DNA of 64,000 bases, taken from positions 62,001 to 126,000 of the forward strand of contig WGNP01000013.1 in assembly GCA_016124495.1 (NCBI GenBank), written 5' to 3'. Below the pieces are notes generated by a model. The model was not told where the DNA came from and did no database searches. It saw only the letters and a list, made by a program, of their open reading frames with translations. The DNA comes from Hyphomonas sp. Its GTDB lineage: Bacteria; Pseudomonadota; Alphaproteobacteria; Caulobacterales; Hyphomonadaceae. This document shows, piece by piece, positions 5,651 to 23,925 of this stretch; position 1 is the first letter of the stretch, and each line of letters starts with the position of its first letter. The position numbers were made by a program, and so were the translations under genes.

Positions 5651-5659
5651 TTATCCACA
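5651..5659 (+). promoter_or_regulatory. Perfect consensus DnaA box
   Basis: TTATCCACA matches the DnaA-box consensus at all nine positions. It lies 22 bases upstream of the tim44-domain gene and 120 bases upstream of secB, about 4.2 kb from the putative origin. A single box in a divergent promoter region could let DnaA control one or both genes. Confidence 0.55.
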
Positions 5660-5778: not shown

Positions 5779-6270
5779 ATGACAGATACCAGCGCGCCCG
5801 CAAACCCCACTCCCGGCAGCCCGGCGCAGTCTGCGCCTTCGCTGCGGGTTCTTGGCCAGTATGTGAAGGATCTGTCTTTCGAAAATCCTGGCCATGCGCC
5901 AGTCCAGACGCAGCCGAACATCGACCTAGGGATCGATGTCGGCGCTGCCCCGCATGTCGACGGCAACGGCCTGTTTGAGGTCTCCCTGAAGCTTTCGGCC
6001 AAAGCGTCGTCCGGCGAGACGACGCTGTTTATCACCGAACTCGACTATGCTGGCCTGTTCCAGTTGTCGAACGTGACCGAGAAGCAGATCGAGCCGATGC
6101 TGCTGATCGAGTGTCCCCGCCTGCTGTTCCCGTTTGCGCGCCGGATCATCGCGGAGATCACGCGTGAAGGCGGCTTCCCGCCCCTGCTGATCGACCCGGT
6201 AGATTTCGTGCAGCTCTACCAGGCCCAGTACCGCAAGGCGGCCGAGCGCGCGGGGGAGACGCCCGCCTGA
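5779..6270 (+). CDS. secB: Protein-export chaperone SecB
   Basis: A 163-residue cytoplasmic chaperone that holds preproteins unfolded and delivers them to SecA. The sequence follows the SecB fold: an early VLGQYVKDLSFENP strand, the EVSLKLSAKA strand, the ITELDYAGLFQLSN segment, the LLIECPRLLFPFARRII helix and the GGFPPLLIDPVDFVQLY motif. Length is typical. It is convergent with dnaQ, with three bases between the stop codons. Confidence 0.96.
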   Translation: MTDTSAPANPTPGSPAQSAPSLRVLGQYVKDLSFENPGHAPVQTQPNIDLGIDVGAAPHVDGNGLFEVSLKLSAKASSGETTLFITELDYAGLFQLSNVTEKQIEPMLLIECPRLLFPFARRIIAEITREGGFPPLLIDPVDFVQLYQAQYRKAAERAGETPA

Positions 6271-6273
6271 TCC

Positions 6274-6975
6274 TTAATGGATGGTTTTCCAGACCGCGCC
6301 TGCGCCGAGCTTTTCGATGAGCGCAGCATGGGCGGCGAGTTCCTGATCTGTGGCAGATGAGGCAAGCGGCTTTGGCCGCCGAAGCGCGGGCGGACGCACC
6401 GGGCCGCCCTCCTGGTGATTCGCCGCGTCGAAGCTGAACGCGCGGGCACGTCCGCCGAGCAGTTCAAGATAGACCCTGGCAAGCAGCTGGCTGTCGAGCA
6501 GCGCGCCGTGGAAGGTGCGGCTTTCGAGCGAAATGTCGAAACGCTTGCAGAGCGCATCGAGGCTGGCCGGCGCACCCGGAAAGCGCTTGCGCGCTATCGC
6601 AACCGTATCGATCCAACGATCATCCGGGATCGGCGGGCGCCCACAACGCGCCAGTTCGGCATTCAGGAAGCCGCGGTCGAACGCAGCATTGTGCGCGACG
6701 AGGGTCGCGTCGCCCAGGAAGCTGAGGAAGGAATCGACGATATCGGGATGCTCGAAGGGCGGCTTGTCGCTCAGGTCCCCGTCGGTGATCCCGGTGATGC
6801 GGATCGTCGCCTCCGAAACGGGCCGGCCGGGATTGATCAGGCGGCGGAAGGTTCGCCCGGTCGGGATATGGTTGATCAGCTCGACGGCGCCGATCTCGAT
6901 AACGCGGTCGCCGTCTGCCGGGTTGAGGCCGGTGGTTTCGGTATCGAAGGCGATTTCGCGGATCCGGTCGGTCAT
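6274..6975 (-). CDS. dnaQ: DNA polymerase III epsilon subunit (3'-5' proofreading exonuclease)
   Basis: A 233-residue DEDD-type exonuclease. Exo I is FDTETTGL (residues 10-17), Exo II is the [10 protein letters not shown] block, and Exo III is [17 protein letters not shown] with the catalytic His and Asp. The epsilon subunit proofreads for the replicative polymerase. It is the last gene of a minus-strand cluster ppsR-maf-aroE-coaE-dnaQ in which each start overlaps the previous stop by four bases, so the proteins are probably translationally coupled. This order is conserved in Caulobacterales next to the origin. Confidence 0.95.
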
Positions 6976-8392: not shown

Positions 8393-8985
8393 TGCGGCAG
8401 GACCTTCCGGATACGCAGATAGTCGAGCAGTGGAAGCAGCGGGAGGCCGAGGATCGAAAAATAGTCGCCTTCGATCCGGGAGAAAAGCTGCGCCCCATAG
8501 CCTTCGAGCTGGTAGGCGCCGACAGTGGTAAGCAGCGTGCCGCCGCAGCGCGCCACATAATCGTCGATGAATTCGGGCGAGAGCGGGCGCATCGTAAGCT
8601 TCGGGCGCGCGAGGTGGCGCCAGACGGGCCGGCCCTCTTCACAAACCACGATAGCGGTCTCTAGCGTGTGGGATTTTCCGGAGAGACGGAGGAGATGGTT
8701 TTTCGCCTCCGCCAGATCGCACGGCTTGTCGAGCGCCTCCTCACCAAGCGCAAGCATCTGGTCGCCGCCGATGACGAGCCCTGGACGCGACTGCGACACG
8801 CGGACGGCCTTCATCTCGGCGAGCTGCATAGCCTGGTCGCGCACGGACACCCCTTCGGCGCGCATTGCGGTGCGATAGGAATCCTCATCGACGTTTGGTG
8901 CAACGGCTTGTGCCATGACGCCAGCAGCCGTCAGCAAGGCACGGCGGCTGGCGCTGCCGGAAGCTAGAGTTACAGCCAGACTCAC
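8389..8985 (-). CDS. maf: Maf-family nucleoside triphosphate pyrophosphatase
   Basis: A 198-residue protein with the Maf signature LASGSASRRALL at residues 8-19, the GDQMLALGEEALDKP block and the TTVGAYQLEGYGAQLF motif with its conserved glutamate. Maf proteins hydrolyse non-canonical or canonical nucleotides to monophosphates. The start codon is GTG and overlaps the ppsR stop as GTGA, which fixes the start and suggests translational coupling. The variant motif places it in the YceF/YhdE range; the exact nucleotide preference is not readable. Confidence 0.92.
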   Translation of the reverse strand: MSLAVTLASGSASRRALLTAAGVMAQAVAPNVDEDSYRTAMRAEGVSVRDQAMQLAEMKAVRVSQSRPGLVIGGDQMLALGEEALDKPCDLAEAKNHLLRLSGKSHTLETAIVVCEEGRPVWRHLARPKLTMRPLSPEFIDDYVARCGGTLLTTVGAYQLEGYGAQLFSRIEGDYFSILGLPLLPLLDYLRIRKVLPQ

Positions 8986-9824
8986 GGATGGCCCCGGCGT
9001 TCATGCAGAAGGTTGAGAATCGCAGCGGCCGTTTCTTCGACTGAGCGGCGCGACACATCGATGGTCTTCCACTGGTTGCGCTGGAATAAACGGTTCGCCT
9101 GCGTGATTTCTTCGCGCACGGCCTCCTCATCCGCATAGTCGCCGGCGTCATCCTGGTTGAGCGAGATGAGGCGCTGGCGCCGGATCTGGACGAGGCGCTC
9201 AGCGGAAATCTTCAAACCGACGACGAGCGGCCCCTTGTCACCCATCTTTTCCAGGAAATCCGGTAGCGGAGCACCTGGCACCAGCGGAATGTTGCCAGCG
9301 CGGACCTTGCGGTTGGCGAGGTAGACGCAGGTCGGTGTCTTCGACGTACGGCTGACCCCCAGCAGTATAACGTCGGCACCGATCAGGCTTTCCATATTCT
9401 GGCCGTCATCATGTGCCAATGTGAAGTTGATCGCTTCCATCCGCTCAAAATAGTCTTCGTCCATCGCATGCTGGCCCGCAACGCGGTTGTTGGCGGCGAC
9501 GCCGAGATGGCGGCTCAGCATGGCGATTGAAGGATCGAGCACCGGCAGGGTGGGAATGCTCCGCTCACGGCAGAAAGATTCAAGGCGGGCGCGCAGGCCC
9601 GAATCGGAGATCGTGTACCAGACCACGCCGGGCGCCGCCTCAATCTCGCGGGTGACGCGCTCGAGCTGGCGTTCGGAGCGCACAAGGTAATAGTTGTGCT
9701 CCAGCGGTTGGACGTTCTCGAACTGCGCGCAGGCGGCGCGCTGTACTGCGTTCAACGTCTCGCCGGTGGAGTCGGAGACGAGGTGCACATTGAAGTAGAT
9801 GGCGGGCCGGGCAGGGCGTGTCAT
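8982..9824 (-). CDS. ppsR: Pyruvate,phosphate dikinase/PEP synthase regulatory kinase-phosphorylase (DUF299)
   Basis: A 280-residue DUF299 protein. Early VSDSTGETLNAVQRAA and the P-loop-like GVSRTSKTPTCVYLANR motif are diagnostic; the C-terminus carries QVSEEAxxxNR-like residues seen here as REEITQANRLF. The family reversibly phosphorylates PPDK or PEP synthase using ADP. I chose the ATG at 9824; the frame remains open 24 codons further up but into the candidate origin and without homology. It heads the minus-strand cluster and faces hemE across the gene-free gap, the same flanking gene that borders the Caulobacter crescentus origin. Confidence 0.92.
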   Translation of the reverse strand: MTRPARPAIYFNVHLVSDSTGETLNAVQRAACAQFENVQPLEHNYYLVRSERQLERVTREIEAAPGVVWYTISDSGLRARLESFCRERSIPTLPVLDPSIAMLSRHLGVAANNRVAGQHAMDEDYFERMEAINFTLAHDDGQNMESLIGADVILLGVSRTSKTPTCVYLANRKVRAGNIPLVPGAPLPDFLEKMGDKGPLVVGLKISAERLVQIRRQRLISLNQDDAGDYADEEAVREEITQANRLFQRNQWKTIDVSRRSVEETAAAILNLLHERRGHP

Positions 9825-9863
9825 ATGCCTGTCTTGCCGGTGCTTCCTTATTTGCACAAGGGT

Positions 9864-10061
9864 TGTGACTCGCCTGTGGAATGAGCCGCAGCTCACAGGG
9901 ACTCACACGCTTTCCACAACTGGGAGAATTCGACTCTCGCGTGGTCACGGCCTGTTCCGCCCTGTGATTTCCCTTGAAGCTTTAACCTTGCGTTAATCAT
10001 TGAGAGTCGCTGGAAATCTGTTCGCCTGTCAGGCGAGCGGCGCGTGTGACTCGCTTGTGGA
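9864..10061. repeat. 17-bp direct repeat pair with DnaA-box cores in the origin region
   Basis: TGTGACTCGCYTGTGGA occurs at 9864-9880 (Y is C) and 10045-10061 (Y is T), 181 bases apart. Each copy contains a CcrM site (GACTC) and ends in TGTGGA, the complement of the TCCACA core of DnaA boxes. The conservation of the whole 17-mer suggests a composite binding element rather than an isolated box. Confidence 0.6.
9982..9996. promoter_or_regulatory. Perfect CtrA-binding box TTAA-N7-TTAA in the origin
   Basis: TTAACCTTGCGTTAA matches the full CtrA box used in Caulobacterales, where CtrA bound at the origin blocks replication in swarmer cells. It lies near the middle of the ppsR-hemE gap. At about 65 percent GC such a site is expected roughly 0.06 times by chance in 64 kb. 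Confidence 0.75.
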
Positions 10062-10169
10062 TTTTGGTGGACAAAGCCGTAGAAACGAGGCTCTCCAACC
10101 TTTCTGCAGTTTCATAACTATAAGCGCCCTGACGGGCTCCTTTAAATTGGGATGAAAAGGGGAAGGGTA

Positions 10170-11207
10170 ATGACGGCCGCCGGCGGGAAAAAATTTCTGG
10201 ATGTGCTTTCAGGCAAGGCAGTCTCGCCTCCTCCCGTCTGGATGATGCGCCAGGCTGGCCGCCACCTTCCGGAATATCTCGAAACCCGCTCACGGGCACG
10301 GGACTTTCTGGACTTTTGCTACACACCCTCCCTTGCAGCCGAGGCAACGCTTCAGCCGGTTCGCCGGTACGGCATGGATGCTGCAATCCTCTTCGCGGAT
10401 ATCCTGCTGATTCTCGATGCGATGGGTCTCAATGTCGCCTTCGAGAAGGGCGAGGGCCCGCTGGTCGAAGTCATCAACGGTCCGGCAGATCTCGAACGTG
10501 TCAGACCGCAAGCGGCTGCCGATAAGCTTTCCCCGGTTTATGAAACAGTTTCGCGGGTCAAGGCTGCGCTGCCATCTTCCTGCGCGCTGATCGGCTTTGC
10601 AGGGTCGCCGTGGACGGTGACGCTGTATGCGGTTGAAGGCCGGGGTAAGACGGACAAGTCCATGGCCTGGCGCTGGGCGCATGGCCGGCAGGCCGATCTG
10701 GCGGCGGCAATGGATCTCGTAGGTGAGGCAACCGCGTGTTACCTTGCCCGGCAAGTCGAGGCGGGCGCTGATGCGTTGATGCTGTTCGATAGCTGGGCGG
10801 AGGGCCTGCCGGATAATATCTTCGAGGAAGTTATTATTGCGCCGACCAGGAAACTGGTGGCGCGGCTGCGAGGCATGGGTGTGACCGTGCCAATCATCGG
10901 CTTTCCGCGCGGTGCGGGCGTAATGGTGCCTGACTATGTGGCGGCGACGGGTGTGACGGGCGTCGGTCTTGATACCGCTGCCTTGCCGAAATTCATTAAT
11001 AGTACCCTGCCCCCGAATTTCCCGGTTCAGGGCCATCTTGATCCCCTTCTGTTGATCGAGGGAGGTGCGCGTCTTGACGCACGGGTCGACCAGCTTCTGG
11101 ACGCCTATCGCGGCCGGCCCCATATCTTCAATCTCGGTCATGGGGTTCGTCCTGAAACCCCGATTGCGAATGTTGAACGCGTTCTGGCCCGGATTCGAAA
11201 AGGATAA
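10170..11207 (+). CDS. hemE: Uroporphyrinogen decarboxylase
   Basis: A 345-residue enzyme that decarboxylates uroporphyrinogen III to coproporphyrinogen III in haem synthesis. The family signature WMMRQAGRHLPEY near the N-terminus supplies substrate-binding arginines; GFAGSPWTV, FDSWAEGL and the final FNLGHGVRPETP motif are all present. I prefer the ATG at 10170, which has GGGGAAGGG directly upstream; an in-frame ATG at 10152 would add six residues. It is followed 8 bases later by hemH, and hemJ completes a haem operon beside the origin. Confidence 0.95.
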   Translation: MTAAGGKKFLDVLSGKAVSPPPVWMMRQAGRHLPEYLETRSRARDFLDFCYTPSLAAEATLQPVRRYGMDAAILFADILLILDAMGLNVAFEKGEGPLVEVINGPADLERVRPQAAADKLSPVYETVSRVKAALPSSCALIGFAGSPWTVTLYAVEGRGKTDKSMAWRWAHGRQADLAAAMDLVGEATACYLARQVEAGADALMLFDSWAEGLPDNIFEEVIIAPTRKLVARLRGMGVTVPIIGFPRGAGVMVPDYVAATGVTGVGLDTAALPKFINSTLPPNFPVQGHLDPLLLIEGGARLDARVDQLLDAYRGRPHIFNLGHGVRPETPIANVERVLARIRKG

Positions 11208-15573: not shown

Positions 15574-17438
15574 TGTCGCACGCGGCCGACTTTGATGTGA
15601 TCGTGATCGGCGGCGGCCATGCCGGATGCGAAGCCGCAACGGCCTCTGCCCGCTTCGGCGCGCGCACAGCGCTCGTCACCCACAAGCGATCGACCATCGG
15701 CGAGATGAGTTGCAACCCGGCCATTGGGGGCCTTGGCAAAGGCCACCTAGTCCGCGAGATCGATGCCCTCGACGGCGTCATGGGACGGATGGCCGACAAG
15801 GCCGGCATCCAGTTCCGGATGCTGAACCGCTCCAAGGGTCCGGCCGTCTGGGGGCCCCGCGCGCAGATAGACCGCAAGCTCTATCGCGAAGCGATGCAGG
15901 CCGAGCTCGGCGATTACCCTAACCTTACAATCATCGAGGACGGCGCCGAAGACCTGATCGTCGAGGACGGACAGGTCGCCGGCATCATTGGCCTTACCGG
16001 AACCCTTTATCGGGCGACCAGGGTTGTGATCACGACCGGGACCTTCCTGAAGGGCGTCATCCATATCGGCGCCAAGCGCATCCCTGCCGGCCGGGTCGGC
16101 GAGGCGGCTGCCATCGGATTGTCGGACCGGCTCTGTGCGCTCGGCCTGCCGATGGGGCGGCTTAAGACGGGGACCCCCGCTCGCCTGGATGGCCGGACGA
16201 TCCATTGGGACCGACTTGAAATACAGCCGGCTGATTACCAGCCGATCCCGTTCAGTTTCCTGACCGAGCGGATTGACGTGCCCCAACTCGCCTGCGGCAT
16301 CACCTGGACCACGCCCGAGACCCACGCGATCATCGATGCGAACCTCAACCAGTCGGCCGTTTACTCCGGCGCGATTGCCGGACGCGGTCCACGCTATTGC
16401 CCCTCCATCGAGGACAAGGTGCACCGGTTCGCTGACCGGGATCGCCACCAGATCTTCCTTGAGCCAGAAGGCCTCGACGATCACACTGTCTATCCGAACG
16501 GCATCTCGACCTCGCTGCCGGAAGAGATCCAGGACCTTTTCATCCGGACGATCCCCGGCCTCGAGGATGTCGCCATTCTGCAGCATGCCTATGCCATAGA
16601 GTATGACTATGTAGACCCGCGTGCCCTTTCGCCTGCGCTCGAAGTTAAGGCACTTCCCGGCCTCTACCTCGCGGGCCAGATCAATGGCACGACAGGATAC
16701 GAAGAAGCGGGCGCACAGGGTCTCATGGCGGGCCTCAACGCAGCCCGTGCGGCGGCTCAGAAAGACCCCGTCATCTTTGACCGAGCTGAGGCCTATATTG
16801 GCGTCTTGATTGACGACCTCGTGACCCGGGGCGTGACGGAGCCCTATCGGATGTTTACTTCGCGCGCCGAATACCGGCTCGCGCTCCGGGCCGACAATGC
16901 CGACCAGCGGCTGACATTCCGCGGCCTTGAAGCCGGATGTGTCGGGTCTGAACGCGCCGCGATGTTTCACGTGAAACATCGCGCATTGGATGAGGCCCGG
17001 GCGAAACTCAAATCCTTGACCCTGTCTCCAGCCGCCGCGGTGAAGGCGGGGTGGACCATCAATCAGGACGGCCGGGTCCGGTCGGCCTGGGAGTATCTCG
17101 CATATAAGGAGATCACGCTCGCGCACCTCCGCCTCGTTTGGCCGGAGCTCGAATCGATCCCTGACGCGGTCGGCGCCCAGATCGAGATTGAAGCCCTCTA
17201 TGCGGCCTATCTTGACCGGCAGTCGGATGACGTCGCCGCGCTGCGGCGTGACGAGTCCCTGACGCTGCCCGAGGGCCTCGACTATGATGCCATTGGGGGG
17301 TTGTCGAACGAGGTCCGGTCCAAACTCAAGGCCGTGCGCCCGATGACCCTCGGCCAGGCGGCGCGGATCGAGGGTGTGACACCCGGGGCCTTGACCGCAC
17401 TGCTCGGCCACGTGAAACGCGTCCGGCGAACAGGGTAG
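15573..17438 (+). CDS. mnmG: tRNA uridine-5-carboxymethylaminomethyl modification enzyme MnmG (GidA)
   Basis: A 621-residue FAD enzyme that works with MnmE on wobble uridines. The dinucleotide loop [11 protein letters not shown] begins near residue 12; [20 protein letters not shown] and the [13 protein letters not shown] block are family signatures, and the C-terminal helical domain is complete. A perfect parS site is embedded at 16963-16978 and encodes the peptide MFHVKH, an insertion also seen at parS sites in other alphaproteobacterial genes. A weaker parS-like half site lies near the 3' end (17404-17419). It is followed 17 bases later by rsmG. Confidence 0.96.
16963..16978. other. parS centromere site 1 (inside mnmG)
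   Basis: TGTTTCACGTGAAACA is the perfect 16-bp ParB-binding palindrome. The symmetry extends to 26 bases (16958-16983). It is read in frame as MFHVKH in MnmG. It lies about 7 kb from the putative origin and 1.1 kb upstream of parA, the usual distance in Caulobacter relatives. Confidence 0.95.
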
Positions 17439-17455
17439 ATCCGGGCGGCACACAA

Positions 17456-18085
17456 ATGACACACACGAATGACCGCGGGGCCTTTCTGGCCGCCCACGAT
17501 GTTTCACGTGAAACATTGGCTAAGCTCGACATCATCATTGAGACGCTCGACCATTGGCGGACGCGGAGCAATCTGATTGGTCCGAAAGAGTGGCCGCAGA
17601 TCTGGACGCGGCATGTAGGCGACTCCGTCCAGCTGCTTGACCGGATCCCTGATACGGCCCGCGTGGTCGACCTCGGATCCGGCGCCGGTTTTCCCGGATT
17701 GATTCTCGCAGCGGCCCGTCCGGCCGGTCATGTGACGATGATCGAGAGCGTCGGAAAGAAATGTGCGTTTCTTCGCGCCGCCATCAAAGCTGCTGATTTG
17801 CCCGCCGAAGTCCACCAGGGCCGGGTCGAGGCAGCGCCCCCGATCGCCGCTGCTTACGTCACTGCACGCGCGTTTGCTCCGCTTCCGGAGCTCCTCGATT
17901 ATGCCGCGCCCTGGCTGCGCAAAGGGGCAACAGGGGTCTTCCCGAAGGGTGAGCGCTGGAAAGAAGAATTGACGGCAGCCCAGCAAAGGTGGAATTTCGC
18001 TTATCAAGCGATTCCAAGTCGCAGTGGTGGGTCCGGGGTAATCTTGATTGTGCGGGAGGCTGCGAGACGCCATGGCCAGGCCTAG
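17456..18085 (+). CDS. rsmG: 16S rRNA (guanine527-N7)-methyltransferase RsmG (GidB)
   Basis: A 209-residue SAM-dependent methyltransferase that modifies G527 of 16S rRNA. The SAM-binding loop VVDLGSGAGFPGL sits near residue 65, preceded by the family segment WTRHVGDSVQLL and followed by MIESVGKKCAFL. The second perfect parS lies in its N-terminus and encodes VSRET, the usual peptide at this place. The stop overlaps the parA start by 14 bases. Confidence 0.95.
   Translation: MTHTNDRGAFLAAHDVSRETLAKLDIIIETLDHWRTRSNLIGPKEWPQIWTRHVGDSVQLLDRIPDTARVVDLGSGAGFPGLILAAARPAGHVTMIESVGKKCAFLRAAIKAADLPAEVHQGRVEAAPPIAAAYVTARAFAPLPELLDYAAPWLRKGATGVFPKGERWKEELTAAQQRWNFAYQAIPSRSGGSGVILIVREAARRHGQA
17500..17515. 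other. parS centromere site 2 (inside rsmG)
   Basis: A second perfect TGTTTCACGTGAAACA palindrome, extended by one base pair on each side (17499-17516), 537 bases from site 1. It is translated as VSRET near residue 17 of RsmG. The two sites and the adjacent parA-parB genes form the chromosome-partitioning locus. Confidence 0.95.
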
Positions 18086-18878
18086 AATATTTGCTGTCGT
18101 AAACCAGAAGGGCGGTGTCGGTAAAACCACGACGTCGATCAACCTTGGCACCGCGCTCGCCGCCGTCGGGCGCCGGGTGCTGATCGTTGACTTCGATGCG
18201 CAGGGTAACGCCTCGACCGGTCTCGGCATTTCCCGGGCGGAGCGGCTCCAGACGTCCTACGACCTCGTGGTCGACCGGATCCCGCTCGAGGAAGCCGTCC
18301 TCTCCACCATCGTCCCTCGCCTCGATATCATTCCAGGCGACGAGAACCTTTCCGGTGTGGAGACGGAACTCGCGGGCGATGCCCACCGGTCCTACCGTCT
18401 CAAGGAAGCGCTGCAGACCTATATCGCGCGCGCCGAGACCGGCGACCTCGTGAAGTATGATTACGTCCTGATCGATTGCCCGCCTTCGCTGTCGGCCCTG
18501 ACGATGAACGCGATGACGGCTGCCGATGCGCTGCTCGTTCCGCTGCAATGCGAGTTCCTGGCCCTGGAAGGCCTGTCCCAGCTTTTGCGCACCGTTGAAG
18601 TGGTCCGATCCGGCCTCAATCCGACGCTCGAAATCCAGGGTGTTGTCCTGACCATGTATGACCGGCGCAATTCGTTGTCCGACCAGGTGGCCAACGAAGT
18701 GCGCTCTTTCTTCGGCTCCAAGGTCTACAACACCGTGATTCCACGCAACGTGCGCCTGTCCGAAGCGCCGTCTTTCGGCAAGCCGGCGCTCCTTTATGAT
18801 TACCGCTGCCCGGGGAGCGAGGCGTATATCCGTCTCGCATCGGAGGTCTTGCAGCGCGAGAAGGCGAGGGTGGCATGA
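18072..18878 (+). CDS. parA: Chromosome-partitioning ATPase ParA
   Basis: A 268-residue Walker-type ATPase that binds DNA non-specifically and pulls ParB-parS complexes to the new pole. The deviant Walker A motif KGGVGKTT covers residues 13-20; VDFDAQGNASTGLG, the YDYVLIDCPPSLS Walker B segment and FLALEGLSQL are typical. The ATG at 18072 gives the standard N-terminus (RIFAVVNQKGG); longer frames start inside rsmG. It overlaps rsmG by 14 bases and parB by four (ATGA). Confidence 0.96.
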   Translation: MARPRIFAVVNQKGGVGKTTTSINLGTALAAVGRRVLIVDFDAQGNASTGLGISRAERLQTSYDLVVDRIPLEEAVLSTIVPRLDIIPGDENLSGVETELAGDAHRSYRLKEALQTYIARAETGDLVKYDYVLIDCPPSLSALTMNAMTAADALLVPLQCEFLALEGLSQLLRTVEVVRSGLNPTLEIQGVVLTMYDRRNSLSDQVANEVRSFFGSKVYNTVIPRNVRLSEAPSFGKPALLYDYRCPGSEAYIRLASEVLQREKARVA

Positions 18879-19813
18879 GCGGCGAACCCCAGGATGACGG
18901 CCGCCGCGCTTCGCGGCTCGGACGCGGGCTTTCGGCACTGATCGGCGAAGTCGAGGCCATGGGCGTTCGCTCGCCCAGCGCAACTGTTCCGGCCCCGGAT
19001 GTTCCGCCTGCGGAACGACCGAACGAGATTGCGCTTGACCTGATCCGCCGCAACCCGGCCCAACCGCGCCGCAGCTTTGATGATGGCGAATTGCGCGAGC
19101 TTTCGGAATCACTGAAGACTAAGGGGGTCCTTCAGGCGATTCTGGTGCGTCCCGATCCGAAAGAGGCGGGCAAGTATCAGATCATCGCCGGCGAACGCCG
19201 TTGGCGCGCTGCGCGCATGGCGGGGCTTACCCATATCCCCGCCGTGGTCAGGGATGTCGACGAACTTGCGCTCCTCGAGATCGGCATCATCGAGAACGTT
19301 CAGCGCGCCGACCTCAATCCGGTCGACGAGGCGGAGGCCTATGACGCGCTGATCAAACGCTTCGGCCGCACCCAGGACAGCCTCGCCACCAGCGTCGGCA
19401 AGAGCCGCGCCCATATCACCAACACGCTCCGCCTGCTCCAGCTTCCGGAAGGCGCACGCCGCCACATCCGCGAAGGCCGCATCAGCGCCGGCCATGCCCG
19501 CGCGGCCCTCGGCTGTGCCAACCCCGAAGCGCTCATCGAGCTCGCCATCGAAAAAGGCCTCAGCGTTCGTGAAGTCGAAGCCAAGGCCCGCGAGTCGCGT
19601 GAGGCGAGCCTCGAGACCAAGTCGATACCGCCCAAGCCGGTGATGGAAAAGGACGTCGACACCGAGGCCCTCGAAGCGGACATCAGCCGCGAGCTGGGCC
19701 TCGTCGTCGACATCCGCCATGGCCGGGAAGGGGGTGAGATCCGGATCAAGTACCGCGATCTCGAACAGCTGGACGAAGTCTGCAAGCGCCTGACGGCGAA
19801 GCGCAAGCTCTAA
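18875..19813 (+). CDS. parB: Chromosome-partitioning protein ParB
   Basis: A 312-residue CTPase and parS-binding clamp. After a short ParA-interacting N-terminus (RLGRGLSALIGE), the CTP-binding domain has IRRNPAQPRRSFDD and the GERRWRAARMAGL box; the helix-turn-helix that reads parS spans DSLATSVGKSRAHITNTLRLLQLP, and the C-terminal dimerisation domain ends in a basic stretch. It is the last gene of the mnmG-rsmG-parA-parB series and is convergent with holA one base away. Confidence 0.96.
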   Translation: MSGEPQDDGRRASRLGRGLSALIGEVEAMGVRSPSATVPAPDVPPAERPNEIALDLIRRNPAQPRRSFDDGELRELSESLKTKGVLQAILVRPDPKEAGKYQIIAGERRWRAARMAGLTHIPAVVRDVDELALLEIGIIENVQRADLNPVDEAEAYDALIKRFGRTQDSLATSVGKSRAHITNTLRLLQLPEGARRHIREGRISAGHARAALGCANPEALIELAIEKGLSVREVEAKARESREASLETKSIPPKPVMEKDVDTEALEADISRELGLVVDIRHGREGGEIRIKYRDLEQLDEVCKRLTAKRKL

Positions 19814-19814
19814 G

Positions 19815-20846
19815 CTAGCGCGCGCCTTCGGCAACCCTTGCCAGATCGTTAATCAGTAGGCGGACGATTGGCTCCGCCGTCGGCCCAGCGGTTTTGGCCT
19901 GTCGTTCGGCATCGTGGATCCGCTCCATGATCCGCATCAGGCGTCTCGGCGTCCAGGTATTCATCCGCTTCCGGAAGGCCGGCCAGTCTTTCTCCCAGAC
20001 CGGGGGGCGCAGGCTGCGGCCCGCATTGGCATCGCCCGCCGACACCTTTTCATGCGCGCTCAGCATCCGGAGCGTCTCCATCTGCAGCGACCGCAGGATA
20101 GAGATCGGACTCGTCCCTGCCTCGGTCAGCCGGTCGAGCGCCTTGTGCGCTTCCGCCGGGCGGCCCTCGAGCGCGGCGATCAGAACCCCGCTCATGTCCT
20201 GGCGCAGGGTCGCGGCCGTCAGAGCGCGGACGTCAGCCACGGACACACTCCGCCCGAGTCCCCGCGCATACAGCGCAAGCTTTTCGATCTCGGCGTTGGC
20301 TATTGCCCGGTGCCCCGGAAGATCGGCGCAGAACATCTCAAGCGCCGTATCGTCCATCACCGCGCCTTCTGCCATTAAGGCGGCACGTACCCTGTCGACG
20401 ATGTCGCCCGCTTCCTCGGTGAAAAGCTGAAGGCACGCGGTGCGCTTCGCTTTCTCCGCCGCGCCGCGCAATTTTGACTTTGCAGCAAGGCTGCCGGTCT
20501 CGATCACCAGCTTTGCCGCGTACCGCCCGGGCGCCGAGTCTCCCGCCTCGATGGCCTCGATCAGCAGCGCTGCAATCTTATCGCCGCCGGTGCGCACCCG
20601 CACCCCCCGCTTGTCGCCAAGGAGGGAGAACGCCTCCAGCGCATCAAACAGGAGGGAGGGATCTTTGCGGATTGCATCATCGTCCAGAACGGTGACCTCG
20701 AGTCCGACCTTGCCGCCCCACGCCGACAGTACTGCTTGCGCAGCGTCGGAAGCCAGACCTTCATCGTCGGAAAAGGCGAGCACCGCCCAGATGTCGTCTC
20801 CGGGGCGCCGGGCGAAAGTTTCCGCCTGCTTGCCCTTGAGCAGCAT
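19815..20846 (-). CDS. holA: DNA polymerase III delta subunit (clamp loader)
   Basis: A 343-residue HolA protein with the N-terminal sequence beginning [16 protein letters not shown], a central AAA+-like but ATPase-dead region (FFSLLGDKRGVRVR-type segment, then CADLPGHRAIANAEIEKLALYA), and a helical C-terminal domain ending in RLLINDLARVAEG. It opens the beta clamp during loading. It is the last gene of the leuS-lptE-holA block: its start touches the lptE stop (one base shared), as is common in proteobacteria. Confidence 0.9.
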   Translation of the reverse strand: MLLKGKQAETFARRPGDDIWAVLAFSDDEGLASDAAQAVLSAWGGKVGLEVTVLDDDAIRKDPSLLFDALEAFSLLGDKRGVRVRTGGDKIAALLIEAIEAGDSAPGRYAAKLVIETGSLAAKSKLRGAAEKAKRTACLQLFTEEAGDIVDRVRAALMAEGAVMDDTALEMFCADLPGHRAIANAEIEKLALYARGLGRSVSVADVRALTAATLRQDMSGVLIAALEGRPAEAHKALDRLTEAGTSPISILRSLQMETLRMLSAHEKVSAGDANAGRSLRPPVWEKDWPAFRKRMNTWTPRRLMRIMERIHDAERQAKTAGPTAEPIVRLLINDLARVAEGAR

Positions 20847-21331
20847 TACGGGGACGCGAACTTGAGGCGGATGTCGTCCGCGATCCGCTTGGCGAGCATG
20901 CGCATGGCGCGGTCGGACGCGCTGGTCTGCGCGGCGATATCACCAAACGGCGAGTCGGGCACGAGAAAGCCGGTCTCGACATTCACGCTGCCGGTTACCG
21001 AAACTGTCTCCCCCGTCATGACGTAAACGCCGGTCGCCAGAACGCTGGAGCGCGAGGCGGCCCCGTCCGGCTGGAAGGCAAGTCGCGAAAGCTGGTCATT
21101 CAGGTCGACCTTGAGGGTGACCTGCTCTGTCAGGCCCGGCACGCCGAGCGCCAGTTCCTGCAGCAGGGCCTGGCGCAGCATGTGGCCCGCCCTGCCCCGG
21201 ATGTCGTCGACCTCAATCAGCCCGGCATCGGCGTACTTTCCGTCCGCTGGCGCATAGACCGGCTGGAATCCGCAGGCGCTGAGAGAAGTGCCCGAGGCGG
21301 CGAGGAGCAGGGCGGCGAAGAGGTGTTTCAT
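20846..21331 (-). CDS. lptE: LPS-assembly lipoprotein LptE
   Basis: A 161-residue lipoprotein (lipobox LSAC, cysteine at about residue 23) with the short LptE hallmark CGFQPVYAP after the cysteine, and the [12 protein letters not shown] segment. It sits in the outer membrane as the plug of the LptD translocon that inserts lipopolysaccharide. The start at 21331 gives the signal peptide; a longer frame upstream runs inside leuS. Its ATG overlaps the leuS stop by four bases. Confidence 0.88.
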
Positions 21332-23925
21332 GCAACCACGATATTCACGATGCGTCCCGGCACGACAATGGTTTTCTTCACGTCCTTGCCGGTGATAAAC
21401 CCTGCAACCTCCGGCAAAGCGCGCGCCGCCGCCTCCACTGCCTCGTTTCCGAGGTCCCTCGCCACGGTGATTTCGCCGCGCCGTTTGCCGTTTACCTGAA
21501 CAGCGAGAGTGACAGTATCTTCGGCAACAAGGGCGGCGTCGGCCTCCGGCCAGGCGGCGGCAGACACAAGGCCCTGCCCGCCGATCCGCTCCCACGCGCT
21601 CTCGGCAAGGTGCGGCATGAAAGGGGTCAGGCAGCGCGCCAGCATGGAGACGGCCTCGGCGCGGGCACCCAGCAGGCCGCCGGAGCTTTCTGCCTTCTTC
21701 AGCGCGTTCACCCATTCATAGATGGTCGCGATCGCGGAATTGAACCGGAACTCGGCGATGGCCTTGTCGACAGCTTTCGCGGCCCGGTGGCTCACCCGCC
21801 GAAGGTCCAGCGATGCGGCGTCCTCACCCGGGTCAGGGTAGGGGGCCACAGGCAGGTTGTCGGCCAGACTCCAGATGCGCTGCGCAAACCGGCCAGCGCC
21901 TTCGACGCCGGACTGCGTCCATTCGACATCCCTCTCGGGCGGCGAGTCCGACAACATGAACCAGCGCGCGACATCGGCGCCGTAGGTCGCAACGATCCCG
22001 TCCGGATCGACGGTATTCTTCTTCGACTTTGACATTTTCTCAATGGCGCCAGCTTCGACGTGCTCACCGGTCGCCCTCTCGACCCAGCGATTGTCCTGCT
22101 TCTCGACCGCTCCGGGCTCAAGCCAGCGGCCGTCGGCTGCGCGGTACGTCTCGTGCGTCACCATGCCTTGCGTGAAGAGGCCCGCGAACGGCTCTCCGAC
22201 CGGCAGGTCCAGTTCGCCGACGTCCCGCATCGCGCGCGCGAAGGCACGGGAATAGAGAAGGTGCAGCACGGCATGTTCCACGCCGCCGATATACTGATCC
22301 ACAGGCAGCCAGTATGCGCGCTCCGCCGGATCGCTGATCGAGGCAAAGCGGGCATAGTACCAGGAGCTGTCCACGAACGTGTCCAGCGTGTCGGTCTCGC
22401 GCCGCGCCGGTTTTCCGCAGGTCGGGCAGTTTACATGTTTCCAGGTCGGGTGATGGTCCAGCGGATTGCCCGGCTTGTCGAAGGTCACATCCTCCGGCAG
22501 ACGCACCGGCAGCATCTTCGCGGGCACCGGCACGACGCCGCAGACCTCGCAATAGATCACCGGGATCGGGCAGCCCCAATAGCGCTGGCGCGAGAAGCCC
22601 CAGTCGCGCAGGCGGTAATTGACCGTACCCTGGCCATGTTCGGAGGCTTCGAGTTTTGAGATCGCCAGACGCTTGGCCTCGTCCACGGCAAGCCCGTCAA
22701 GAAAGCCGGAATTGAAGATGCGTCCCGGGCCGGTATAGGCCTTTTCGTCGACGCGGAAGTCTTCTGCTGCCGTCTCGGGCGGCAGGACAACCGGCGTGAC
22801 CGGCAGGGCGAACTTTCGCGCAAAATCGAGGTCGCGCTGGTCGTGTGCCGGGCAGCCGAAGATCGCGCCGCTGCCATAGTTCGACAGCACGAAGTTGGCG
22901 GACCAGACCGGCAAGGTGCAGGACGGATCGAAGGGATGACGCACGCGCACGCCGAGGTCGACGCCCAGCTTGGGCGCCTTCTCGATGGCCTCTTCAGACG
23001 TGCCGATGCGCGAGGCTTCTGTGATGAAAGCTGCGACAGCGGTATTCTGCGCCGCAATCGTGCGGGTCAGCGGATGGTCGGGCGCCAGAGCGATGAAGCT
23101 GGCGCCGAACAATGTGTCGGGACGCGTCGTGTAGACTTCGATTGGATCTGTCGCATGGTTCGGGCCGCTCTCCGCTCCGGCTGCCACCAGAAACTCCGGC
23201 GCTCCGGCAATGTCCCACCAGACCAGCGCGCCTTCCGACCTGCCGATCCAGTTCGCCTGCATCGTGCGGACCTTATCGGGCCAGCGGTCCAGCTTCTGGA
23301 CTTCCGTGAGCAGATCATCCGCATACGCCGTGATCCTGAAGAACCATTGTGTCAGGTCGCGCTGTTCGACCAGCGCGCCTGACCGCCAGCCGCGCCCGTC
23401 AATCACCTGCTCGTTGGCGAGTACGGTATTGTCGACCGGGTCCCAGTTCACTTTCGAGGCCTTGCGATAGACAAGGCCCTTCTCGAGGAATTTCAGGAAC
23501 AGCGCCTGCTGTGCGCCGTAGTATTCCGGATCACAGGTCGCGAACTCGCGGCTCCAGTCCAGAGACAGGCCCAGCTTCTTGAATTGCGCCTTCATCGCGT
23601 CGATGTTGGCATAGGTCCATTTGCCGGGATCGATTCCGCGTTCCATCGCGGCGTTCTCAGCTGGCAGGCCGAAGGCGTCCCAGCCCATCGGGTGGAGGAC
23701 ATTGTAGCCCTTGGCGCGCCGGTGGCGGGCAACGACGTCGCCCATAGCATAGTTGCGCACATGCCCCATGTGCAGCCGGCCGGAAGGGTAGGGGAACATC
23801 TCGAGGACGTAAGCCTTCGGCGCCCCCGGCGCTTCGGCGGGAGACCGGGTGCGAAACAGGTCCGCTGCGGCCCAGGCGTCACGCCACCTGGGCTCCGCAG
23901 CCTGCGGATCATATCGGGTTGCCAT
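21328..23925 (-). CDS. leuS: Leucyl-tRNA synthetase
   Basis: An 865-residue class I synthetase charging tRNA-Leu. The HMGH motif is at residues 52-55 after FPYPSGRL, the CP1 editing domain contains [12 protein letters not shown] and [13 protein letters not shown], and KMSKSKKN lies near residue 629. The C-terminal domain is complete. The gene precedes lptE and holA on the minus strand in the order common to many proteobacteria. Confidence 0.97.

Follow-up and report, generated by a model that had tools for sequence, protein, structure and literature searches.

The nearest described systems include two alphaproteobacterial origins of replication, cited here from the accessible parts of the publications. 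In Caulobacter crescentus, the origin (Cori) is bordered by hemE and a COG1806 gene and contains CtrA boxes, GANTC sites and DnaA boxes that are typically weak (PMC4468827). In Hyphomonas neptunium, skew, dnaA and DnaA sites gave no clear origin before marker frequency was used, and the marker-frequency maximum was found close to hemE (Jung 2019, PMC6650430). According to the same paper, hemE lies near 0 degrees, and two parS sites and parAB are ~7 kb away. CtrA ChIP-seq in this species gave a site next to the origin and a genome-wide motif TTAA-N7-TTAAC (Leicht 2020, PMC7200025). The available text of these two papers describes neither boxes nor GANTC at the origin.

Escherichia coli and Vibrio cholerae provide precedents for methylation acting on initiator sites. 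In E. coli oriC, the low-affinity DnaA sites R5, I2, I3, tau1 and tau2 overlap GATC and are hidden by SeqA (PMC4285127); not all Dam bacteria are reported to have seqA, which is known from a subset of them. In V. cholerae oriII, the 11- and 12-mers bound by RctB each contain a methylation site, and full methylation aids binding (PMC2865523). This system differs in its initiator, its methylase and its location on a secondary chromosome. As far as the sources were accessible, opposite statements are in print on a direct action of CcrM on an alphaproteobacterial origin. In C. crescentus, over-expression of CcrM gives extra chromosome copies; according to a review, initiation does not require CcrM (PMC6090056), and another paper states that full methylation is required. 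The methylation sensitivity of C. crescentus DnaA was left open (PMC3973325).

The window analysed here is a stretch of 64,000 bp (contig C18, positions 62001-126000) from a Hyphomonas assembly of 25 contigs (3.27 Mb, 93.66% complete). We consider the gap between ppsR and hemE in this window to be the chromosomal origin, with a probability of about 95%. Its features are listed in Table 1. The ppsR start (9824) was taken from homologues, and an alternative in-frame GTG is present at 9896. The hemE start was placed by the upstream GGGGAAGGG, and there is also an in-frame ATG at 10152. The first two named matches of hemE were from Henriciella (64%) and Hirschia maritima (61%), which places the genome in the Hyphomonadaceae.

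Table 1. Coordinates of the features in and around the gap (window numbering)
Feature	Position	Strand	Remarks
Candidate origin, intergenic, Cori-like	9825-10169		345 bp
ppsR (COG1806/DUF299)	8982-9824	-	left boundary gene; PF03618, NF003742
hemE	10170-11207	+	right boundary gene; PF01208
S0, single DnaA-like box ATTTGCACA	9850-9858	+	CACAAG invariant in 39/39
P1a, DnaA-like box fused to CcrM site TGTGACTC	9864-9872	-	GANTC in 33/39
P1b, DnaA box	9875-9883	-	11 bp from P1a; 6/9 consensus bases here
P2a, DnaA-like box fused to CcrM site GANTCACA	9899-9907	+	GANTC in 39/39
P2b, DnaA-like box CTTTCCACA	9910-9918	+	11 bp from P2a in 39/39
S3, single TGTGA box, here TGTGATTT	9963-9971	-	GANTC in 38/39, lost in the window's species
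CtrA box TTAA-N7-TTAA, perfect	9982-9996		congeners: TTWW-N7-TTAA in 39/39, perfect in 22/39
Dyad TCGCCTG-T-CAGGCGA	10022-10036		with variants in 4/39 congeners
P3a, DnaA-like box fused to CcrM site TGTGACTC	10045-10053	-	GANTC in 37/39
P3b, DnaA box AAATCCACA	10056-10064	-	11 bp from P3a; TGTGGA invariant
ATAACTATAAGCGCCCTGACGGGC block with GCCC-GGGC hairpin	10114-10137	+	largely conserved in the genus
parS, perfect	16963-16978		
parS, perfect	17500-17515		
parA and parB	18048-19813	+	parA 18048-18878, parB 18875-19813

The initial annotation had proposed an origin between ppsR and hemE, the genes that also border Cori, and this placement was borne out by the protein families and strands of the two genes. 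Of 61 family genomes searched, 59 had a hemE match; the loci of the best 30 were fetched, and the two genes were neighbours in all 30. Among named loci (the best 80 of at least 587, a few of them Hyphomonadaceae), 48 of 80 had the divergent pair; the 32 without a ppsR match in the fetched flank were dropped. The dyad, a direct repeat (TGTGACTCGCYTGTGGAWT, starting at 9864 and 10045), the CtrA box and five GANTC sites (9867, 9900, 9932, 10004 and 10048) were all found where they had been reported. Two further claims could not be confirmed. The gap had been called the only gene-free one above 300 bases; a crude gene caller left six others, although in at least one of them the caller had dropped an ORF (20846-21715). 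Genes had been said to run away from the gap on both sides, and the same caller preferred a plus-strand ORF on the left side (5779-6270).

With Cori, known here from published descriptions, the gap shares the boundary genes hemE and COG1806, CtrA boxes, GANTC and, putatively, weak DnaA boxes; perfect CtrA boxes number one here versus five in Cori. Unlike Cori, the gap contains no IHF consensus (WATCAN5WTR, strict pattern only; 4 in the window vs 3.46 expected), which is why it is classed as Cori-like, and it has tandem pairs at 11 bp in which one box contains GANTC. It also contains no W-box (TCCCCA). The second perfect CtrA box present in 14/39 congeners lies at a place that the dyad overlaps. 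The AT content was 47% in the gap vs 36% in the window, and the gap's least stable 50-mer, at 9973, ranked at the 99.8th percentile of the window.

The position near hemE, two parS sites and parAB ~7 kb off and a CtrA site beside the origin are shared with H. neptunium (PMC6650430, PMC7200025). The two parS sites were present ~7 kb from the gap in 8/8 genomes, and the reported proximity of parS, parAB and two polymerase III subunits (dnaQ, 6274-6975; holA, 19815-20846) held. A GC-skew fit was made with 20 sampled stretches per genome and a terminus-opposite model, at a resolution no better than tens of kb. In the complete congener G022, the skew switched 4 kb from hemE (r 0.75, compared with 0.41 at dnaA), and in the complete congener G015, 17 kb from hemE (r 0.88, compared with 0.54 at dnaA). 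A one-contig congener (G070; 3,705,021 bp), the record of which begins inside the ppsR/hemE gap, had its best fit 20-80 kb from hemE (r 0.68; 0.65 at hemE and 0.19 at dnaA). TA skew gave best fits at distances from hemE of 79 kb (G070), 4 kb (G022) and 62 kb (G015); those of ORF-strand bias, which were weak, were at 99, 96 and 557 kb. The distance between dnaA and hemE was ~480-525 kb in G022, G015, G005 and G046; dnaA is nearer to hemE in some other genera (~112 kb in G006, ~76 kb in G010).

The skew check proposed for the origin gave a split result: the switch is near hemE in G022 and G015, but contig C18 makes no turn at the gap. Over 206 of its 209 kb, the cumulative minimum falls at 149 kb, and the gap is 77 kb away from it. 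The skew of the window and of C18 was rejected as an origin locator, since it is unusable at such a scale. That C18 is uninformative here, together with the unclear skew, dnaA and DnaA-site signals of H. neptunium (PMC6650430), would suit an origin located elsewhere, for example beside dnaA, with the gap being a regulated divergent promoter region in conserved synteny. We regard this as very improbable: skew favours hemE over dnaA in G022 and G015, parS adjoins the gap in 8/8 genomes, and the H. neptunium marker frequency, in the accessible part of the report (PMC6650430), points to hemE. The origin reading is supported by all of these and by the synteny and the published CtrA ChIP-seq. The H. 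neptunium origin has been mapped near hemE, so a location of this kind is not new. We regard the origin as an ordinary member of a familiar class, for which a map already exists in a probable near relative.

For the boxes, the gap was aligned in 39 of 42 congeners. The three left out were G100, in which the contig stops short of hemE, G070, in which the gap is divided by the start of the record, and G104, which has an insert. The alignment contained 20 invariant 4-mer positions, and eight of these are CACA/TGTG cores at distinct sites. Six of the eight cores form three tandem pairs, which are 11 bp apart from core to core in 39/39: P1 (9864/9875), P2 (9904/9915) and P3 (10045/10056). In the congener gaps, 11 bp was the commonest same-strand TGTG-TGTG spacing (n=117), followed by 23 bp (n=25). 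It was also the commonest in 16 loci from other genera of the family (20/43), 15 of which had an 11-bp TGTG pair. In the 48 named-locus gaps, the spacing was not prominent (8, vs 10 at 12 bp and 10 at 20 bp). Pairs in sister genera often consist of two ordinary DnaA boxes, for example TGTGGATGCATTGTGGATAA. Arrays in E. coli oriC have a 2-bp spacing, like the pairs here, which are a 9-mer plus 2 bp. The window holds five 11-bp pairs vs 0.63 expected, and three of the five are in the gap. Outside the origin, overlapping TGTG 11-bp pairs were seen at 17449-17465, between gidA and gidB and beside parS.

In the window's species, no more than 5 to 7 of the 9 bases of a box agree with the DnaA consensus. 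A perfect box had been reported as missing from the gap, and TTWTNCACA is indeed absent. P1b is a perfect TTATCCACA in 2/39 congeners and reads CATTCCACA in the window's species. As it is perfect in these two and the array is conserved, the absent perfect box appears to be a drifted position in a conserved array; judged from the alignment, divergence at conserved box positions would largely resolve this weak point. A perfect TTATCCACA occurs just once in the window, at 5651-5659, between called genes and 4 kb left of the origin. The C-terminal part of DnaA contains RDHTTV in G070 and in a near relative (G092).

The three TGTGANTC sites of the gap were matched by none of 4198 other 345-bp windows, and its three 11-bp TGTG pairs were equalled by none. 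Five GANTC sites (0.54 expected from the window rate) occurred in 1 of these windows, a CtrA box in 22 and three CCACA in 84. Likewise, none of 20000 first-order Markov shuffles contained three TGTGANTC or three 11-bp pairs, while five GANTC were found in 224 shuffles, a CtrA box in 51 and three CCACA in 832.

Four of the eight cores carry GANTC in the genus (TGTGANTC), namely P1a, P2a, S3 and P3a, and all four do so in 30/39 congeners. The window's species retains three of the four, S3 being without GANTC; the motif is missing at P1a in 6/39 congeners and at P3a in 2/39. Such boxes are unlike the C. crescentus consensus sites for CtrA and DnaA, which are described as being without GANTC-like sequence (PMC3973325, accessible part). 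At P2a, the N of GANTC takes all four states (T in 14, G in 9, A in 9 and C in 7 congeners), while the flanking GA and TCACA are invariant. By the criterion used, this was the only free column with invariant flanks. The free position at the fused sites is the N of CcrM and not the N of TTATNCACA.

The element columns were excluded when the tree was built. On this tree, the N columns of the four sites required at least 5, 5, 5 and 2 changes, similar to background columns (mean 3.6; 182 columns, 35 with none), and the sixteen GA/TC columns required 8 together, five of them at P1a. As the four states at 9902 take just 5 changes, the species are not independent. In the 39 gaps, 162 of 320 GANTC sites were fused to TGT/ACA vs 19 of 1702 in 1.18 Mb sampled from three congeners; shared descent inflates the Fisher p of this contrast. 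Within the window itself, 3/5 were fused in the gap vs 1/96 outside.

The composite TGTGANTC-N3-TGTGNA had 91 matches in 41/41 genomes. By coordinates, 88 were in the gap, the three outside were all one sequence, and the reversed control gave 0. In the divergent ppsR/hemE gaps of the named loci, this composite occurred in 0/48 and a single-box TGTGANTC in 5/48. Among the 16 loci from other genera of the family, TGTGANTC-N3-TGTGG was found in 1 and at least one TGTGANTC in 3, so some fused sites also occur outside the genus. These comparisons give good support for regarding fused DnaA/CcrM boxes as a sequence feature of the genus. Searches of the accessible part of the open-access PMC literature gave no account of a Hyphomonas origin with GANTC within its DnaA boxes. 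The fusion across the genus appears to be new, unlike the location of the origin.

A serious rival to gating of DnaA is the control of promoters in the gap by GcrA. On this view, the gap would still be the origin, but GcrA and CcrM would act through the GANTC sites on promoters of hemE, ppsR or a CcnA-like RNA, and the overlap with the boxes would be a matter of packing in a small and crowded gap. GcrA is known to act on methylated GANTC promoters, and C. crescentus Cori encodes the RNA CcnA, both according to partly accessible sources. Three more conserved GANTC columns (9926, 9932 and 9942) are not fused to any box. There is also a conserved promoter-like block upstream of hemE (10114-10137), which probably comprises the hemE promoter -10 and a leader hairpin. 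Packing would not, however, be expected to fuse half of all GANTC in the gaps to TGT/ACA or to keep the phase to a DnaA box constant at 11 bp. An Rfam search of 9300-10700 gave no match up to E = 1, which speaks against a CcnA-like RNA but is compatible with an undescribed one. Promoter control has a real chance of being correct, though one clearly below even.

A different protein that requires GANTC could also bind the TGTGA half of each pair, leaving only the TGTGGA half to DnaA. The TGTGA boxes here match the DnaA consensus at only 5/9 bases, as this would suggest. Against it, many pairs of sister genera have TGTGGA in this half, and P1a is TGTGTACAA (TTGTACACA, 7/9) in two of the six congeners without GANTC there. 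The Helicobacter pylori box TCATTCACA, as given in a partly accessible source, likewise has a TCACA core. We consider this reading unlikely.

We infer that DnaA binds the boxes and that its binding depends on methylation. An origin with methylation gating of DnaA, either directly or through GcrA, stands at about even odds. In its favour, the genome also encodes GcrA and a protein with a RAMA domain, as in CcrM; the RAMA search matched only Caulobacter among 14 control genomes. Points against it are the modest consensus matches of the boxes, the GANTC losses at S3, P1a and P3a, the shared descent of the species, the conserved GANTC columns outside the boxes, the missing IHF consensus, the skew fits of C18 and G070, and the review's statement on CcrM in C. 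crescentus. DnaA would nucleate on the boxes closer to consensus (P1b, P3b and P2b) and would extend cooperatively to the partner box at a distance of 11 bp (one helical turn, made up of the 9-mer and 2 bp). In non-replicating cells, CtrA~P at 9982 would block DnaA assembly. In the genus, the TGTGA-type boxes (P1a, P2a, P3a and S3) contain the CcrM site within the box. CcrM acts late in the cycle; until then, the fused boxes of a fired origin would be hemimethylated, and this state may lower DnaA occupancy, directly or via GcrA, so that the origin does not re-fire.

More tentatively, CcrM methylation inside the tandem boxes might itself switch DnaA assembly and thus provide a once-per-cycle lock without SeqA. 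It is possible, if somewhat doubtful, that such direct switching is an alphaproteobacterial counterpart to Dam/SeqA within the initiator's own sites, with GANTC and CcrM here vs GATC and Dam in E. coli. The genus has fused boxes at places where sister genera often have plain ones, so the question of a direct CcrM action lends itself to a direct test. H. neptunium is one species suited to this, as conditional mutants, ChIP-seq and synchronised cultures have been published for it, as far as the accessible text of the papers goes (PMC6650430, PMC7200025).

Two observations concern the assemblies. Neither of the two Pfam domains of DnaA had a match in the window's assembly. dnaA was present in 99/101 family genomes, so its absence here is most likely an assembly gap, and a loss in the window's species was rejected. 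The 19 kb around dnaA in the near relative (G092:C22:419001-438000) had only short or diverged matches here, with 65-96% identity. In G104, a 74%-complete congener (G104:C18:3389-4001), the gap is much longer, with ~410 bp between S3 and P3. This may be a real insertion into the origin or an artefact; no perfect CtrA box was seen, and the insert carries, as read from the sequence, a small DUF983-like ORF.
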